From NCBI GenBank assembly GCA_902806405.1, contig CADCWL010000078.1, positions 1 through 32,570 of the forward strand: a stretch of DNA of 32,570 bases, read 5' to 3'. A program made the translations under genes and the position numbers. The stretch is from an uncultured Thermomicrobiales bacterium (GTDB lineage: Bacteria; Chloroflexota; Chloroflexia; Thermomicrobiales; UBA6265). Below are positions 3,438-25,190 of this stretch, one piece after another. Positions within the stretch are counted from its first letter, which is position 1, and each line of letters begins with the position of its first letter. The notes beneath the pieces are model-generated. The model had not been told where the DNA came from, made no database searches, and saw only the letters and a list, made by a program, of their open reading frames with translations.

Positions 3438-3776
3438 CTAGGGCACGATCTGCATGGTGAGCGCCTCGTGGGCGTAGGGAACGTGCTCGACAATCTCCTC
3501 GCCGACGATCCGGCCATCACTCATCCGAACGATCCGATCGCACAGACCGCCGACACCGGGGTCGTGGGTCACGAGCACGAAGGTCAGCCCGACCCGGTCG
3601 TTCAGGTCGCGCATCAGGCACATGATCTCGGTCGCCGTCGTCGAGTCGAGCGCGCCGGTCGGCTCGTCGGCCCAGACGATCGCCGGGTCGTTCACGAGCG
3701 CGCGGGCGATGGTGACGCGCTGCCGCTGGCCACCGGAGAGCTCCGCCGGGCGGTGGACGGTCCCGAGGCGACGGCC
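3438..3776 (-). pseudogene. Truncated LolD/MacB-type ABC ATPase, C-terminal half only
   Basis: The C-terminal half of an ABC ATPase of the LolD/MacB/FtsE group: signature LSGGQRQRV, Walker [15 protein letters not shown] and the switch histidine in VTHD are all present, and the gene ends properly with TAG. The Walker A and Q-loop half is missing. Family-like sequence (LGTVHRPAE before the signature) can be followed back only to about 3770; beyond it the opposite strand codes for the end of an unrelated glutaredoxin-like protein. Without Walker A it could not bind ATP. It lies directly upstream of the FtsX-like permease and was presumably its partner before the break. Either a genomic deletion/rearrangement or a wrong contig join explains this. 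Confidence 0.75.
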
Positions 3777-3896
3777 CGCTACCGGACCGGCACCTTCGCG
3801 ACGCCGCTGCTCGTCGTCGGCGACCGGTCGGTGCTCGGCCTTCGGCCCGACGAGACCGCGGCGGCCCTGGCCGATCGGGGCGTCCCGGCCCCGTGA
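3755..3896 (+). pseudogene. C-terminal remnant of a glutaredoxin/thioredoxin-like protein
   Basis: On the plus strand a frame ending TGA at 3894-3896 encodes a tail with [13 protein letters not shown] followed by [15 protein letters not shown]. This resembles the cis-proline strand (TP), the beta-hairpin and the last helix of glutaredoxin-like proteins. No start codon or CxxC motif belongs to it, because at about 3755-3776 it runs into the truncated ABC ATPase coded on the other strand. It is read as a gene cut at the same breakpoint. The assignment is from the short motif only. The 198 bases after it up to 4094 hold no gene; a weak -10-like GATACT lies at about 4046-4051, ahead of the next gene. 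Confidence 0.4.
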
Positions 3897-4094
3897 CCGC
3901 CGCCGCCGGCCGGCGCGTTGGCCGTGTGGGGGATCGCTGGTCGGTCGATCGGGTGCGGGGGCAGGAACGGCGGGGAGGTCGATGGTCGTCGCCCGCGGCC
4001 AGCGGCGGGGGGCGGCGGGGGCGTCGCCAGCGGCGCGGGCGTGGGATACTCCGGGCCGGCATTTGGGACGCGACGACGGGAGGCGGGGCGGAAA

Positions 4095-5315
4095 ATGATC
4101 CTCGAGACGCTGGATCTCGACCCCGCGGAGCTGGAGCGGCGCACGGGCTGGCAGATCAAGCCCCAGGGGGCCTGCAAGGGGGAGCGGTGCGTGCCGCTGC
4201 CGGCCGCGGGCGGGGGGCGGGTCGATGCGCGGCTGCTCGCCGAGCGACTGGGCATGCCGCTCGTGCGCGACGAGCCGAGCGGACTCTGGTGCCTGGGGCC
4301 CGAGGCCGGCGGGCGGGCGCTCGCGGACGTGCGGGCCCCCGACCTGGAGCTGCCCGACGTCCACGGCCGGGCGTTCCGCCTACGCTCGCTGCGGGGCCGC
4401 AAGGTGCTGCTCGTCGCCTGGGCTTCCTGGTGAGGCTGCCGGCGTGATCTGCCCGTGTGGCAGGGGCTGCACGCCGAGCTCGGCCCCCGCGGCCTGGCGA
4501 TCGTCACCGTGGCCCTCGACACCGAAGGCGCGGAGGCCGCCCGGCCGTGGATCGAGGCGGCCAAACCGGAGCACCCCTCGCTGGTCGACCGGGCGCACGT
4601 CGTGGACGAGCTGTTCGGGATCGCCAACGTGCCGAGCGGGGTCTGGATCGACGAGGAGGGCGCCATCGTGCGCCCCCCCGAGACCGCGTACCCGGCCCAC
4701 CCCAACTACGGGGACCGGGCGATCCCGCCGGGTGCCTCGGCCCGGGAGGCGGCCGAGATCGCGGAGGTGAGGAAGCTGCGGACGGAGCCGGAGGCGTACG
4801 TCGCCGCCCTCCGCGACTGGGTGGAGCACGGGGCACGGAGCCGTTTCGTCCTCCCGCCCGGGGAGGTGCTGCGCCGGAGCCGCCCGCGCCCCCCCGAGGA
4901 GGCCCGGGCGGCGGCCCACTTCGAGCTCGGCCAGCACCTGCACCGCCTGGGCCGGGCCGAGGACGCCGTCCGCCATTTCCGGGAGGCGTACCGGCTGCAG
5001 CCCGACAACTGGACCTACAAGCGCCAGGCCTGGGATCTGCTCGAACCGCACCGGAGCCCGCTCGAGGTCTACGGGGGCGACTGGCTGACCGACGTCCGGA
5101 AGATCGGCGCCGAGATCGACTACCCCCCGCTCGACCTCTCGGGGCGCCGGGCCCAATCGGTGGCCTCTGCGCCGCTCCCGGGGGATCAGGCGCGCCAAAG
5201 TCGATCCCGTCACCCCGGCCGACGTCCTCGCCCTCTGCCAGCCCGACCGCGTCTGCTCCCAGGCGATGGTCCTCCGCCTGGTCGATCGCAAACCCCTTCC
5301 CGCCGGGACGGGTGA
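4095..5315 (+). CDS. Candidate selenoprotein: thioredoxin-fold (AhpC/TSA, TlpA-like) protein with C-terminal TPR
   Basis: ATG at 4095 follows a GGGAGGCGGGGCGG ribosome site. Reading through an in-frame TGA at 4431-4433 (codon 113) gives about 406 residues. Residues 1-75 form a small domain with [12 protein letters not shown]. Residues 78-230 are a redoxin fold ([14 protein letters not shown], then [22 protein letters not shown]), continuing with a conserved-looking domain ([20 protein letters not shown]). TGA stands where redoxins carry their first active-site Cys, giving U-G-C. A single TPR unit lies at about 276-310. Clear protein character ends near PPLDL (about 5134); the last 55 residues are low-complexity and may lie beyond a lost stop. 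It probably reduces disulfides or peroxides in the cytoplasm, as no signal peptide is seen. If TGA is not recoded, this is a pseudogene. No selA/B/C/D gene is in the window. Confidence 0.65.
4431..4476 (+). promoter_or_regulatory. Candidate Sec codon and bacterial SECIS hairpin
   Basis: TGA at 4431-4433 is followed by a compound stem. Seven perfect base pairs CGGCGTG/CACGCCG (4440-4446 with 4470-4476) enclose an internal loop and an apical 5-bp stem CTGCC/GGCAG (4449-4453 with 4459-4463). The apical loop is CGTGT and starts 20 nt after the TGA. Bacterial SECIS elements bound by SelB are expected as a stem-loop just downstream of UGA, with the apical loop roughly 16-37 nt away and a G in its first two positions; the second loop base here is G. 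In a sequence this GC-rich, chance hairpins are common, so the fit is supportive rather than decisive. Confidence 0.5.
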
Positions 5316-16420: not shown

Positions 16421-17278
16421 GTGGCAAGACGCACCGATGAGCGGCCGCCCGTCCCGGCACAAAGGGAGGGTCGGCCGAGCCGACGAGGCGTGATCATGCC
16501 CGTCGGCGGTGCGGAGGAGAAGTCGACCGAAGGGGCAATCTTGGGCAAATTTGTCGAGCTGGCGGGCGGAGCGTCGGGGCGGGTGGCGATCATCCCGACG
16601 GCGTCGGCCGAGCCGGACGCCGGGGAGAACTACCGGGAGCTGTTCCGGGAGATGGGCGTCGGGCAGGTCGAGATCGTCCGTACCGAGCGTCGCGAGGACG
16701 CCAATGGCACGGTGGGTGTGGAGCCGTTGCGGGCGGCCACCGGCATCTACATCACCGGCGGGGACCAGGCCCGTCTCGTCTCGATCATGGCGGGGACGGT
16801 GGCGATGGAGTGCATCCGCGAGCGCCACGCCGCCGGCGCCGTCGTCGCCGGCACCTCCGCCGGTGCTTCAATCCTCGGGTCCCACATGATGTCCGGCGGC
16901 CTTGGCACGGAGGCGCCCCGGAAGGGGATGACCGAGATGGTGGCCGGCTTCGGTCTGCTCTAGGACGTCATCGTCGATCAGCACTTCAACCAGCGGGGCA
17001 GAATCGGGCGCCTGCTGGTGCTCTACGCCGCCAACCCGGGGCTGCTCTCGCTCGGCATCGACGAGGACACCGCGGCGGTGCTCGACCCGGACGGCGTGCT
17101 GGAGGTGATCGGCCGGAACAGCATCACGGTCCTCGACGGGCGCACGGTCGTCTCCAACTACTACGACATCGACGACGGCGAGGTGGTCACCGTCACCGGC
17201 TCGTCCCTCCACGTTCTTGGCCCCGGCCACCACTTCGACCTCAAGCTGCGCCAGGTTGTAGACGTTCACGCCGCGTAG
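16421..17278 (+). pseudogene. cphB: Cyanophycinase family peptidase interrupted by in-frame TAG
   Basis: A 285-codon reading frame for a cyanophycinase (peptidase S51 family), which cleaves the Arg-Asp storage polymer cyanophycin to dipeptides. Start GTG 16421 follows AGGAGAAAC. Motifs: MPVGGAEEKS (26-35), ITGGDQARL (111-119) and the nucleophile elbow AGTSAGAS with Ser146. The C-terminal part carries VDQHFNQRGRIGRLL and a full family ending. Codon 181 (16961-16963) is TAG within GFGLL-stop-DVIVDQHF; the frame on both sides is the same and no bases are lost, so a single substitution (for instance GAG to TAG) explains it. Other genes here end with TAG, so general TAG recoding is excluded. Either a young nonsense mutation or a base error. 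No cyanophycin synthetase is in the window. Confidence 0.85.
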
Positions 17279-20535: not shown

Positions 20536-21485
20536 GTCCGGGACGGGCGGGCGGGCGGAAAGCCGGTCCCGGGGCGGAGGGGTGGGGGGCAGCGTACGGC
20601 TTCCTCGGCGTCCTCGCCTTCAGCCTGACCCTGCCGGCGACGCGGGCGGCGGTGCCGGAGCTCGGCGGGGTCGTCGTCGGGCTGGGGCGGGCGGTCGTCG
20701 CCGCGGCGCTGGCCGGGGCCCTCCTGCTTCTCCTGCGGGAGCGACCACCGGCGCGCCGGCACCGACGGGGGCTGGCGATCGTGGCCCTCGGCGTCGTCAT
20801 CGGCTTTCCGCTCTGCTCGGCCCTGGCGCTCCGCTCCGTGCCCGCCGTCCACGGAGCCGTCGTCGTCGGCCTGTTGCCGGCGGCGACGGCGATCATGGCG
20901 GTGGCACGGGCGGGCGAGCGGCCGCCGCCCGCCTTCTGGTTGGCGAGCGCGGTCGGGGTCGGCGCCGTGCTGGTCTTTGCCGCGGCGCAGGGGGCCGGCC
21001 GCCCTCAACCCGCGGACGGCTTGCTGCTGGCGGCCGTCGTCCTCGGCGCGCTCGGCTACGCGGAAGGAGGACGTCTCGCCCGCGAGATGGGCGGCTGGCG
21101 CGTGATCTGCTGGGCGTTGGTCCTCGCCGGGCCGGTGCTCACCCCGCCGGTGCTGATCGTCGCCGTCCGCGACGGTCTGGACGCCGGGCAGGACGCCTGG
21201 CTCGGCTTTGGCTACGTCTCGCTGGTGAGCATGTTCCTCGGCTTCTTCGCCTGGTACCGAGGGCTGGCGCTCGGCGGGGTGGCGCGGGTCGGCCAGATCC
21301 AGCTGCTGCAGCCGGTGCTGACCCTCGGCTGGGCGGCGCTGCTGCTCGGGGAGGCGGTCGACCGACCGACGCTGCTCGCCTCGGGCTTGGTCATCGGCAG
21401 CGTCGCCCTGACCCGCCTCAGTTGGACCCAGGCCGGGAGCACCCGGCGACGGCTACGCGGCCGCAGCCCCAGGGAGTCCCCCTAA
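20532..21485 (+). CDS. EamA/DMT superfamily transporter (10 helices)
   Basis: A 317-residue inner-membrane protein with two EamA repeats (about 20-145 and 160-305), ten predicted helices in total, like RhaT/YdcZ/RarD-type exporters of amino acids and metabolites. Repeat 1 ends with GAVVVGLLPAATAIMAV and repeat 2 with LQPVLTLGWAALLLGE, both hallmarks of the fold. ATG overlaps the RidA stop codon, indicating translational coupling. With the XRE-cupin regulator and RidA it forms a plausible amino-acid/imine export and detoxification unit; substrate unknown. The stop overlaps the convergent CGNR gene stop by four bases. Confidence 0.88.
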   Translation: MSPGRAGGRKAGPGAEGWGAAYGFLGVLAFSLTLPATRAAVPELGGVVVGLGRAVVAAALAGALLLLLRERPPARRHRRGLAIVALGVVIGFPLCSALALRSVPAVHGAVVVGLLPAATAIMAVARAGERPPPAFWLASAVGVGAVLVFAAAQGAGRPQPADGLLLAAVVLGALGYAEGGRLAREMGGWRVICWALVLAGPVLTPPVLIVAVRDGLDAGQDAWLGFGYVSLVSMFLGFFAWYRGLALGGVARVGQIQLLQPVLTLGWAALLLGEAVDRPTLLASGLVIGSVALTRLSWTQAGSTRRRLRGRSPRESP

Positions 21486-22177
21486 CCCCCCGTCGCGGCC
21501 CCCGGTGGGAGCGCGCTAGCGGCTTTCTCCGCCAGGTGCGATCGGTACCGTGCCGCCGACCGCGCCCGGTTCATGCAGCCGACGCTGCACCAGCGGCGGG
21601 TCGCGCTCTTGGTGGTGTCGTAGAAGAGGAGCACGCAGCGGTCGTTGCTGCAGCGGTGCAGGCGGGCCGGATCCTTGGTCGTCAACAGCTCGAAGGCGGA
21701 GCGGGCGACCGGCAGCAACGTGCCGTCTGGCCCGGTGTCGCGGCTGCCGACGATCGGTCGCAGCGCCCCACCCCCGTCAATCACCACGGCCTGGTAGCCG
21801 GTGGCCAGCACCCGGTTCAGCACCGACAGGTCCGGCGCCGCAATGACGCGTCCGTCCCTCCCATCCGCGACGGCTCCGAAGATCTGCCGCAGGGCCTCCC
21901 GGAGTGCCGTGGCCGCGGGCAGCGCGCCGTCGTCCGGGGAAACGGCCGGGTCCCCTGCACCGCCGAAGGCGTCCGGGTACCGCGCCCTCGCCGCTCGCCA
22001 CCAGGCGGCGAGGGCGTTCGGCGCGTCGAGCAGATCGGTGCGTTTCCCGCGGACGACGACCTCGGTGTTGACCAGGTCCAACGCCAGCGCCTCGCCGACG
22101 AACAGGAAGCCGCCTGCCGTCCCCTCGACCCTCTCGGTCGCCGTTCTCCCCATCGAACCCGCCCCGTCTCCGCCCAT
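21482..22177 (-). CDS. CGNR zinc finger (ABATE) regulator
   Basis: A 231-residue protein of the CGNR/ABATE family of putative stress-responsive regulators. N-terminal ABATE domain (about 23-165) begins GGFLFVGEALALDLVNTE. The C-terminal zinc finger (about 176-215) has the four cysteines C-x4-C and C-x3-C (CSNDRC, then WCSVGCMNRARSAARYR), with CMNR replacing CGNR. Start is ATG 22177 or, better fitting the family, ATG 22153. A -10 TACAAT stands at 22219-22224. It is divergent from the alpha/beta hydrolase gene and may control it. Confidence 0.88.
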   Translation of the reverse strand: MGGDGAGSMGRTATERVEGTAGGFLFVGEALALDLVNTEVVVRGKRTDLLDAPNALAAWWRAARARYPDAFGGAGDPAVSPDDGALPAATALREALRQIFGAVADGRDGRVIAAPDLSVLNRVLATGYQAVVIDGGGALRPIVGSRDTGPDGTLLPVARSAFELLTTKDPARLHRCSNDRCVLLFYDTTKSATRRWCSVGCMNRARSAARYRSHLAEKAASALPPGAATGG

Positions 22178-22218
22178 CCGTCGCGATGGTCCCGTTCAGC
22201 TCCCCGTCGGTTCGCTCC

Positions 22219-22224
22219 ATTGTA
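22219..22224 (-). promoter_or_regulatory. -10 element of the CGNR gene
   Basis: TACAAT on the minus strand, five of six consensus bases, 42-47 bases before the ATG at 22177, in an AT-rich patch. The -35 is weak (CGTCAA-like at 16-17 bases). Confidence 0.45.
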
Positions 22225-22240
22225 CCAATCAAATCATGTA

Positions 22241-22274
22241 TTGACGTGGACATGATCGGTGGTTATGGTCATGT
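22241..22274 (+). promoter_or_regulatory. Promoter of the Tat-exported hydrolase gene with inverted repeat
   Basis: TTGACG (22241-22246), 17 bases, TATGGT (22264-22269) makes a strong sigma70-like promoter. An inverted repeat ACATGA/TCATGT (22250-22255 and 22269-22274, 13 bases apart) spans spacer and -10 and is a repressor-site candidate, perhaps for the divergent CGNR protein. Confidence 0.6.
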
Positions 22275-22334
22275 TCAGGTCTATCGGATTCCAGACGTGG
22301 ATATTTTGAGCGGGACCTATTGGCGCCGAGGGAT

Positions 22335-22374
22335 GGGCAACGAGCGGTCCCGGCGCCGGGACCGCTCGTTGCCC
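22335..22374 (+). repeat. Perfect 40-bp palindrome in the 5' leader
   Basis: Twenty bases (22335-22354) are followed directly by their exact complement (22355-22374). It lies some 60 bases after the promoter and 55 bases before the GTG start, so the mRNA leader would fold into a near-continuous 18-bp stem. It could stop transcription before the gene, protect the mRNA, or mark a boundary. No T-tract follows. Confidence 0.75.
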
Positions 22375-22429
22375 CGACCGACCGCTTTGCCTGAGCCGTC
22401 GCCAGCGATCGAATCGACAGGAGACCTTC

Positions 22430-23428
22430 GTGGGTATCGACCGACTCGACCGCCGCCGCTTCCTTGGGGGAACGGCGGTCTTTGCCGCCGCCGCGTCCGG
22501 CCTCGCCGCCCAGACGGCCCGGCCCGACGCGACCCCGACGGCCGCCCCGGTCGGCTCCCTCGCCCAGCAGACCTTCTACCGAACCGTCCCGGTCGAGGGG
22601 GTCAATGTCTTCTACCGGGAGGCAGGCGACCCCCGGAACCCGACCATCCTGCTCCTCCACGGCTTCCCCTCCTCGTCGCACATGTTCCGCGACCTGATCC
22701 CCCTTCTGGCCGACCGCTTCCACCTGGTCGCCCCCGACTACCCCGGCTTCGGTCGGAGCGATGCCCCAAGCCCGGCCGACTTCGCCTACACCTTCGACCG
22801 TCTGGCCGACGTGGTGGAAGGCTTCCTCTGCGCGCTCGCGATCGATCGCTTCAGCCTCTACGTCCAGGACTACGGCGCGCCGGTCGGCTACCGGCTCGCC
22901 ACCCGTCACCCGGATCGGATCGAGGCGATCGTCAGCCAGAACGGCAACGCATACGGGGAGGGCTTGACGCCGTTCTGGGACCAACTCCGGCCCTATTGGG
23001 CGGATCCGTCTCCAGCGAACGAGGCGCCGTTGCGCGCACTGCTCACCCGCGAGACGACGATCTTTCAGTAAACGGAGGGGTACCGTGACCCCTCGCGAAT
23101 CAGCCCGGACGCGTGGACGACCGACCAATTGTTCCTCGACCGCCCCGGAAACCAGGAGATCCAGCTCGCCCTGTTCTACGACTATCGGACCAACGTCGCG
23201 GCCTATCCCGCCTGGCACGCCTACTTCCGCGAGCGGCGACCGCCCCTGCTCGCGGTCTGGGGCCGGAACGACCCCATCTTCGGCCCGGACGGCGCCCGTG
23301 CTTTTGCCCGCGACCTCCCGGACGCCGAGATTCACCTGCTCGACACCGGCCATTTCGCGTTGGAGGACCACGCTCACGCGATCGGCGGGCACATCGACCG
23401 GTTCTACCGAGACCGGGTCGGCCCCTAG
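22430..23428 (+). pseudogene. Tat-exported alpha/beta hydrolase (haloalkane dehalogenase/epoxide hydrolase-like), interrupted by in-frame TAA
   Basis: GTG 22430 after AGGAGA. The N-terminus RRRFLGGTAVFAAAASG is a twin-arginine signal peptide. The alpha/beta hydrolase fold follows: LLLHGFPSSSHMFRDL (75-90), DYPGFGRSD and the nucleophile elbow VQDYGAPVG with Asp147, as in haloalkane dehalogenases and epoxide hydrolases; acid region WGRNDPIFG and catalytic His in TGHFALEDH near the end. Codon 214 (23069-23071) is TAA in TIFQ-stop-TEGYRDPSRI, where relatives usually have Tyr (FQYTEG); TAC to TAA explains it. Frame is preserved to TAG at 23426-23428. As written it would give a 213-residue protein without the catalytic His. 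Nonsense mutation or base error. Confidence 0.85.
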
Positions 23429-23448
23429 CCCGCTACCGACGGATACCC

Positions 23449-23472
23449 GGGACGGGCCGATCGGCCCGTCCC
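23449..23472 (+). terminator. Perfect 24-bp palindrome after the hydrolase gene
   Basis: GGGACGGGCCGA followed by its exact complement, 20 bases after the hydrolase stop. No T-tract. Acts as a likely transcript end and, with the 40-bp palindrome, brackets the hydrolase gene. Confidence 0.55.
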
Positions 23473-23535
23473 ACCCAACGCCACGGCGCCAGCGCACGCG
23501 CGAACCGTCAGGAGAACGGGGAAAGGACGATCGGG

Positions 23536-23733
23536 ATGACCGCGACCTCCACGACCGAGACGACGGCGACGACCCAGGGCCTCCAAACCGGCCACATCGG
23601 CCTCAACGTCACCGATCTGGACCGCTCGACGCGCTTCTACCGGGACGTGTTCGAATTCACCCCGCTGGATGAGTCACGGGAGGAGGGCCGCCGCTTCGCC
23701 TTCCTCAGCGACGACTCGCGAGACGCATCGTGA
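23536..23733 (+). pseudogene. Truncated VOC (glyoxalase/bleomycin-resistance fold) protein
   Basis: ATG 23536 opens a 65-residue frame whose residues 18-57 are a typical first beta-alpha-beta unit of a VOC metalloprotein (TGHIGLNVTDLDRSTRFYRDVFEF, with metal His20; then GRRFAFLSDDSR). Normal members have 120-150 residues. Homology stops at about 23723 and an unrelated 90 bases lead to the MOSC gene. No other frame continues the fold, so this is a deletion remnant, not a frameshift. Confidence 0.7.
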
Positions 23734-23820
23734 GCGACCGGGGCGGACCGGCGGTATCGTTGACCGTGCCGACCCCGGCCCCGCGCTCGGCGCCACGAAA
23801 GCCAGAAGGTGGAGGACCAC

Positions 23821-24531
23821 GTGACGCGATCTGAACCCGCGCCGTCGCCCGAGGGGACCATCCGGTCGACGCTGGAGGCGCCCCCGGCCGAGGTCCGGCT
23901 CGTCTCGGTCAACGTCGCCCGCCCCCGCGTCATCGGCACCCACCGTGGGCGGCCGGTCCTGAGCGGGATCGGCAAGCGGCCCGTTGCCACCGACACGCTC
24001 GTCCTCGACCTACTCAACCTGGAGGGGGACGGCCAGGCCGACCTTTCCGTCCACGGCGGTCCGGACAAGGCGGTCTACGCCTACCCGTCCGAGCACCTGC
24101 CGACCTGGAACCGGGAGCTGGATGTCTCGTTTGGACCCGCCACCTTCGGCGAGAATCTGACGACCGAAGGGGCGCACGAGGACGAGGTTCGGATCGGCGA
24201 CGTCTGGGCCTGGGGCGAGGCCCGCTTGCAGGTGACGCAGCCGCGCTCGCCCTGCTACAAGCTGGCGATCGCCACCAATCGGCCGGATCTGGGTAAGCGC
24301 ATGGTCGCGAATGGACGAACCGGTTGGTACCTGCGGGTGCTGGCGCCCGGCCCAGTGCCCGTTGGCGGCCCGATCTTCGTCGCGGAGCGCGACCCGGCCT
24401 GTGTCACCGTGCTCGCCGCCCACCGTGCCCTGTTCGACGCCGACGCGACCCGCGCCGATCTGGAAGCGGTCGCCGCCGTCGATGCCCTGGCCGGCCGGTG
24501 GCGCGGGGCGATCTTGGAGCGGCTCGCCTAA
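23821..24531 (+). CDS. MOSC domain protein (YiiM-like)
   Basis: A 236-residue protein of the MOSC family, related to the molybdenum cofactor sulfurase C-terminal domain; YiiM-type members reduce N-hydroxylated compounds using Moco. Core features: GDGQADLSVHGGPDKAVYAYPSEHLPTWN (about 62-90), FGENLTTEG, and the conserved cysteine in QPRSPCYKLA (Moco ligand). GTG 23821 follows GGAGGACCAC. YiiM family C-terminus (3-alpha domain) is present at about 190-236. Placed after the VOC remnant; partners unknown. The Moco-binding role is from family knowledge. Confidence 0.88.
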   Translation: MTRSEPAPSPEGTIRSTLEAPPAEVRLVSVNVARPRVIGTHRGRPVLSGIGKRPVATDTLVLDLLNLEGDGQADLSVHGGPDKAVYAYPSEHLPTWNRELDVSFGPATFGENLTTEGAHEDEVRIGDVWAWGEARLQVTQPRSPCYKLAIATNRPDLGKRMVANGRTGWYLRVLAPGPVPVGGPIFVAERDPACVTVLAAHRALFDADATRADLEAVAAVDALAGRWRGAILERLA

Positions 24532-24551
24532 CCGTAGCGGCGCCCCCCGGC

Positions 24552-25190
24552 CTACCCATCGGCGGCGGCGTTCGGCAGCAGGTAGAGCAGCGCCAACCCG
24601 AGCAGAACGAGCAGGCTCGCCGTCGTGTTGACGAACGCGAGCCCGAAGGCGAGCCTGTAGGAGGGCGGGCCGAGCCGGAACCGAGCCGTGATCGTCTGCA
24701 CCACGCGGGGGCTGGCGTCCGGCTAGAGGAGACGGCCGCTGCGCGACGGGTACCACCAGAGAAGGAAGTAGGAGAGGGCGGTCGCGAGGAAAAAGCCGCT
24801 GTAGACGACAATCGCGGCCCGCTCCCCGGGATGACCGAGGAACCGGCTGAGGAGGGCGGTCGGGAACGGCAAGAAGCCGATGCAGAGCAGGAAGAGGGTG
24901 TTGATCAGGACCAGGTAGTGATCGGTTCGGGCGATCAGCTTGAGAATCTCGTGGTGGTTCGCCCACATGATCCCGATCGTCAGGAAGCTGATCAGGTAAC
25001 CCAGGTACTCGGGCCAGAGGTCGCGCAGCGCCCCCCACAGATCCGCCGTCGAGCTGACTGCGTCGAGCTCCGGGACGTGGATCTCCAGCACCAGCAGTGT
25101 GATCGCGATCGCGATCACCGCGTCGCTGAACGTCTCCAGCCGGTTCGTGTCGCGGCCGGCCCCCGCCGGCGTGCCCCGGTCATCCGCCAC
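24552..25190 (-). pseudogene. TMEM175-family potassium channel with in-frame TAG
   Basis: A 212-codon frame for a bacterial TMEM175 (DUF1211) channel: six membrane helices, with the family signature RxxxFSD at residues 17-23 (RLETFSDAVIAIAI) in helix 1, which forms the ion-conducting pore in tetramers. IMWANHHEI in helix 3 is also typical. Start GTG 25190 follows GAGGGA; GTG 25238 is possible. Codon 156 (24723-24725) is TAG after SGRLL; the same frame resumes with PDASPRVV and a last helix (SLLVLLGLALLYLLP) ending TAG at 24552. Without readthrough the sixth helix is lost. G to T or another single change explains it. Lies 63 bases after the phosphatase gene on the same strand. Confidence 0.8.

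Follow-up and report, generated by a model that had tools for sequence, protein, structure and literature searches.

A perfect 40-bp palindrome upstream of a broken hydrolase gene in a Thermomicrobiales genome: a possible lineage-specific leader RNA hairpin

Two perfect palindromes, one of 40 bp and one of 24 bp, stand before and after a hydrolase gene in an uncultured Thermomicrobiales bacterium, and the locus raises the question of whether they form a pair around this gene and what the longer one may do. The window, by which we mean the whole stretch of DNA analysed (32,570 nucleotides), comes from contig C78 of a high-GC MAG (4,616,060 bases in 266 contigs). A first-pass annotation had described the palindromes as bracketing the gene of a Tat-exported hydrolase, with the longer one inside the transcribed leader. 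The features that bear on this description are as follows.

21482-22177, minus strand: ABATE/CGNR-family transcription regulator (PF07336 and PF11706), divergent to the hydrolase
22222-22253, plus strand: possible degenerate regulator site TACCA-N19-TGGAC around TTGACG, its geometry compared by eye with relatives
22233-22274, no strand: ATCATGT-N10-ACATGAT and TCATGT half-sites over the promoter, found by repeat search
22241-22269, plus strand: sigma-70-like promoter TTGACG-17-TATGGT of the hydrolase operon (9 of 12 matches; start inferred near 22276)
22335-22374, no strand: perfect 40-bp palindrome with no spacer between its arms and no T-run
22430-23071, plus strand: N-terminal part of an alpha/beta hydrolase (PF00561) with a Tat-like motif, ending at an in-frame TAA
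23072-23428, plus strand: C-terminal remainder of the hydrolase in the same frame (PF00561)
23449-23472, no strand: perfect 24-bp palindrome without spacer, 20 nt after the hydrolase stop (-22.8 kcal/mol)
23536-23733, plus strand: glyoxalase/VOC stub (PF00903, profile positions 3-50 of 121)
23809-24531, plus strand: MOSC-domain gene (Pfam), 66% identical over 182 aa to the MOSC protein of locus L195

The 40-bp palindrome is exact and has zero spacer, just as had been annotated. As RNA it folds into a hairpin in which 18 base pairs enclose a loop of 4 nt (-40.7 kcal/mol for folding of the stem alone), and both palindromes have the stability of a GC-rich terminator stem-loop (-40.7 and -22.8 kcal/mol). 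The leader that contains the 40-bp palindrome has a fold more stable than those of 200 of 200 shuffles (z = -3.5); the region of the 24-bp palindrome is unexceptional in fold stability against its shuffles (z = -1.0).

The frequency of such structures was determined in 80 stretches of the genome plus the window (1,188,041 bases, GC 0.707), with a hairpin defined as a perfect stem with a loop of at most 8 and with one first-order Markov shuffle as the control. The real sequence contains 172 hairpins with a stem of at least 10, 124 of at least 11, 86 of at least 12, 34 of at least 15 and 17 of at least 18, and the corresponding counts in the shuffle were 47 (at least 10), 10 (at least 11), 1 (at least 15) and 0 (at least 18), its stems having lengths of 10 (37 hairpins), 11 (9) and 15 (1) and nothing else. 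Since the shuffle gave only stems of 10, 11 and 15 against 86 real hairpins of at least 12, the 20-bp stem of the longer palindrome is not due to chance; stems of 12 bp seldom arise by chance yet are common in this genome. Relative to 1,016 genes predicted by a simple codon-usage caller, which may miss small genes, hairpins with a stem of at least 11 reach 1.1 per kb in the 25 nt that follow a stop codon and 2.0 per kb in the 25 nt after those, compared with about 0.3 per kb in the rest of the intergenic sequence; near start codons the density is also about 0.3 per kb, with no enrichment over that rest. Density is high next to stops, and of the 48 hairpins lying within 60 nt after a stop only 9 have at least 4 T among the 8 nt that follow, which shows that hairpins lacking a T-run form a post-stop class in this genome. 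This class agrees with PMC13155455, which reports that perfect inverted repeats with arms of at least 10, surveyed in 118,019 genomes, are more than 12-fold enriched downstream of bacterial transcription end sites. Two genomes of the same family, sampled at 0.4 Mb each, contain 17 and 34 hairpins with a stem of at least 11 and none with a stem of at least 18.

The longest perfect hairpins in the sample are found at L094 8386-8449 (31-bp stem), L089 2812-2868 (27 bp, within a called gene) and L113 127-184 (25 bp). Near-identical palindromes (AGAGAGGGGCGCCGGTGCTAGCACCGGCGCCCCTCTCT) lie near contig ends at L037 66-103 and L090 5435-5474 and are possibly one repeated element.

Against this background the two palindromes part company. 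The shorter one is perfect at 23449-23472 and does lie 20 bases after a stop codon, although the stop ends the second hydrolase part and not an intact gene. Its distance from the stop is that of the T-run-less class, and it is an ordinary post-stop hairpin of this genome, placed inside an operon. The 40-bp palindrome differs by position: it lies between the divergent genes, 181 nt from one called start and 55 nt from the other, the GTG of the hydrolase, and so away from the roughly 50 nt after a stop codon where the class is found. Among the 17 hairpins with a stem of at least 18 in the 1.188-Mb sample, of which 1 is inside a called gene and 4 are at stretch edges, it is the sole one in a divergent gap. 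The idea of a matched pair bracketing one gene thus does not hold up, the 24-bp member being routine. The bases after the 40-bp and 24-bp stems are CGACCGAC and ACCCAACG, with no T-run after either, and a search for intrinsic terminators over 21400-25000 gave a single match, elsewhere than at either palindrome.

The gene between them is itself damaged. The hydrolase frame starts at GTG 22430 and stops after 213 codons at the in-frame TAA 23069-23071; both parts match PF00561 in a Pfam search. The frame was aligned with 81 relatives, namely the best 80 of more than 80 hydrolase loci in the GTDB collection and L004, a relative from the same family. As 80 of the 81 carry a residue where the window has the TAA, this codon is either a lesion of recent date or an error in the sequence. 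The H of TGHF is present in 75 of the 81 relatives, with a gap at that place in the other 6. As for the proposed Tat-exported hydrolase, the twin-arginine motif RRRFLG and the hydrolase domain are indeed present, but the frame is broken at the TAA and RRxF occurs near the N-terminus in only 4 of 82 frames, the window's included; the other three do not look like signal peptides by eye. The export signal, if real, would be peculiar to the window's copy. Given that the hydrolase is interrupted and the next gene is a glyoxalase stub, the hydrolase-glyoxalase operon looks decayed or affected by sequence errors. Elsewhere in the contig, frames also appear broken by eye at 16490-16963 and 17018-17278, which we take to be a cyanophycinase-like gene in two pieces, and at 3438-4364, presumably an ABC-ATPase-like frame; these suggest that genes in this contig are decaying or that its sequence contains errors.

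ABATE/CGNR regulators are widespread and little studied. A CGNR regulator is present in 56 of the 80 best hydrolase loci and is divergent and upstream in 55 of the 80; some loci have an extra gene between regulator and hydrolase, and for the intervening frame in L114 no Pfam family was found. L004 has the same divergent pair, and the control region of the window belongs to what gene order marks as a conserved regulator-target pair. Neither this pair nor the break in the hydrolase gene had been noted in the first-pass annotation. The closest relative of the window's regulator is found in L195 (56% identity), where the gene divergent to the regulator is a homologue of the window's MOSC gene. This arrangement, together with the 66% identity of the MOSC proteins, supports the view that the hydrolase remnant, the glyoxalase stub and the MOSC gene form one putative CGNR-controlled operon.

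A promoter scan of 21400-25000 found one site, the one at 22241-22269, against 0.3 expected, and L195 has a promoter of similar layout (TTGACA-17-TAGAGT). On the basis of this site and of the promoter layout in the relatives, we infer that transcription starts near 22276, so that the 40-bp palindrome would span roughly positions +60 to +99 of the leader. The palindrome thus very probably lies within the transcribed leader, in line with the first-pass annotation, as the only promoter-like site stands upstream of it with a layout like that of the CGNR relatives. The ACATGA/TCATGT repeat attributed to the promoter could likewise be located, its half-sites being ATCATGT at 22233-22239, ACATGAT at 22250-22256 and TCATGT at 22269-22274; compared with shuffles, the arm of 7 in ATCATGT-N10-ACATGAT is not above chance alone (shuffle maximum, 8).

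The 40-bp palindrome was next placed among its relatives. A search of the whole genome with it matched its own site only, and a transposon or repeat family was rejected as its source; the earlier remark that a transposon does not explain it is borne out, since it is single-copy and a mobile element is not needed. No Rfam family reached the gathering score in the window, no tRNA or tmRNA was found there, and a DNA search with the intergenic region gave no match in 31 other genomes of the family. Among 85 relatives' loci (56 hydrolase loci and 29 CGNR loci of the phylum), a stem of at least 12 occurs in the corresponding region only in L139, L185 and L199; those of L139 and L185 are 12-bp arms of the candidate operator described below, and that of L199 is operator-like. 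The palindrome as a common part of the CGNR-hydrolase module was accordingly rejected, as relatives have no long leader palindrome beyond such operator-like repeats. Since the relatives have no such stem, it appears peculiar to the window's lineage.

What, then, may the hairpin do? The reading that we favour, tentatively and at somewhat less than an even chance, is that the palindrome is a lineage-specific leader RNA hairpin of a CGNR-controlled operon, likely a partial 3'-end or pause element. It would stand in the untranslated leader of the operon of hydrolase remnant, glyoxalase stub and MOSC gene, and by its form it would belong to the GC-rich T-run-less hairpins that this genome otherwise keeps just after stop codons. 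Such a hairpin may mark or protect an RNA 3' end and hinder exonucleases or RNA polymerase. Some transcripts would then stop short as a leader RNA about 100 nt long, and expression downstream would be damped. Action at the RNA level is suggested by analogy with the post-stop class and by PMC13289151, which describes GC-rich hairpins without U-tracts that stabilise RNA ends after Rho-dependent termination and trimming. The classical attenuator proposed earlier fits the leader poorly: there is no T-run, and folding of the leader revealed no competing antiterminator fold of similar strength, the alternatives being weaker than the 20-bp stem. Taken as far as the end of the 5' arm, the leader has a folding energy of -28.9 kcal/mol, compared with -40.7 kcal/mol for the stem alone plus -13.9 kcal/mol for the leader before it.

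Hairpins are not enriched near start codons (about 0.3 per kb), and the leader position may for this reason have no selected function. Because the operon is decayed, the hairpin could also be a relic. In its full form, this alternative holds that the palindrome arose by chance events, for example template switching, in a decaying operon and is functionless, which we consider rather unlikely. It agrees with the broken hydrolase, the stub of a glyoxalase and the lack of the palindrome in any relative, as well as with the recurrence of CGGGACC and GGCGCCG just upstream, at 22311-22328. Nevertheless, the palindrome is perfect over 40 bp, and hence recent or maintained, and many long perfect hairpins are kept at gene ends in the same genome. 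The two recurring words are pieces of the palindrome itself and may hint at its origin.

The mRNA shield that had also been proposed would have the stem protect the message from 5'-end-dependent decay only, without ending transcription. A shield would be expected to look much like this, with a stem of great stability close to the inferred 5' end and no T-run behind it, but about 59 unpaired or weakly paired bases separate the inferred start from the stem, and known 5' mRNA shields sit at the very end of the RNA. A shield is rather unlikely as well.

A different action of the palindrome, as DNA bound by the divergent regulator, has to be judged against the sites that this family may use. Promoter regions of 57 divergent hydrolase pairs, those of the window and L004 included, were searched for inverted repeats; the two most frequent were TAACC-N19-GGTTA and GTAAC-N21-GTTAC, in 44 of the 57 regions each, compared with at most 2 regions for any inverted repeat in three shuffles. 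When up to 1 mismatch is allowed, 49 of 55 loci have GTAACC-N19-GGTTAC in the promoter region, with 81 sites over 24,750 bp; the remaining 420,820 bp of these loci contain 5 sites. Such counts are not independent, since many of the species are related. At other spacers from 14 to 25, GTAACC-GGTTAC gave 0 or 1 site. With up to 2 mismatches, 44 of 55 loci have at least two sites, and 42 bp is the commonest distance between them; of the 25 loci without an upstream divergent CGNR match, 3 have one site. In the CGNR loci of the window's phylum (n = 29), the exact TAACC-N18-GGTTA has 18 sites in 13 loci, and each other spacer from 8 to 30 gave 0-1 site. TTGAC[AG] is followed directly by [AG]GTTA in 49 of 56 hydrolase loci and 14 of 29 phylum loci. 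From this co-occurrence we infer that TAACC-N18/19-GGTTA is a strong candidate for the CGNR operator. The repeats were found in L114-L193 (N19, hydrolase loci) and L195-L223 (N18, phylum), and in L199 the CGNR promoter region contains AATACCCACGTCAAAATATATTTTGACGTGGGTATT, a perfect palindrome of 36 bp, along with another repeat that has 17-bp arms and the same half-site. A general excess of significantly long inverted repeats of any sequence in the phylum CGNR loci was unsupported, 5 of 28 exceeding all 20 shuffles; of the two tests on these loci, the one for TAACC-N18-GGTTA itself gives the strong result. Among the literature matches listed, no operator for the ABATE/CGNR family was found, and none is given in the available part of PMC2954205, which presents an ABATE/CGNR structure and proposes DNA binding. 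A repeat with such exact spacing makes this DNA binding directly testable and could matter more than the palindromes.

The window itself was rejected as a carrier of the consensus TAACC-N18/19-GGTTA, its best match having 5 mismatches near the CGNR gene. Its TTGACG is followed by TGGACAT, where relatives have the consensus half-site after the -35 hexamer, and a direct repeat lies in the same region (GACGTGGACAT at 22243-22253 and GACGTGGATAT at 22294-22304, 51 bp apart); the L199 repeats contain TTGACGTGGGTAT. With low confidence, TGGACAT and the direct-repeat region may be a diverged regulator site. That the 40-bp palindrome is instead the operator, bound by the divergent regulator and acting as a roadblock, is quite improbable: the divergent pair is conserved and a perfect palindrome of 36 bp also occurs near the promoter of one CGNR relative, L199, but the sequence of the window's palindrome, which contains neither TAACC nor GGTTA, is unlike the candidate half-sites (TAACC/GGTTA and TTGACGTGG), and it stands well past the promoter on the downstream side, a place at which the relatives carry nothing of the kind. 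A fold-back artefact of sequencing or assembly, for which the 266 contigs of the MAG and the broken look of other frames in the window might speak, is hardly credible beside dozens of equally perfect hairpins that differ in sequence and lie at gene ends rather than at random, and contig C78 extends on both sides of the palindrome.

A wider proposal, possible but doubtful, joins the two levels. Pairs of TAACC-N18/19-GGTTA, often 41-42 bp apart, would be the operator of the whole ABATE/CGNR family and lock the -35 of the divergent target, and the window's subfamily would have altered this site and added the leader hairpin as a second, RNA-level brake.

The favoured leader RNA hairpin has its nearest likeness in the 3'-end hairpins without U-tracts, those trimmed after Rho-dependent termination and the REP-like ones, with which it shares a GC-rich perfect stem and the lack of a T-run. 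The 24-bp palindrome shares with them also the place just after a stop codon, whereas the 40-bp palindrome lies upstream of a start codon and not after a gene; unlike REP elements, the palindromes of the window are not repeated in sequence. Both have the perfect GC-rich stem of at least 11 and the loop of at most 8 that define the U-less class of this genome. With an intrinsic terminator or attenuator the leader hairpin has in common a strong stem-loop in the transcript, and it differs in having neither a T-run nor a strong alternative fold for a switch. The locus resembles the ABATE/CGNR module (PF07336 and PF11706) in its divergent regulator beside a hydrolase or MOSC gene and in the TTGAC-type -35 at the expected place, and departs from it in lacking the TAACC-N18/19-GGTTA consensus and in its extra long leader with the palindrome. 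The palindromes are for the most part unremarkable: long GC-rich hairpins that lack a T-run are what this lineage uses at the ends of genes, with a single, unusually long example placed in a leader.
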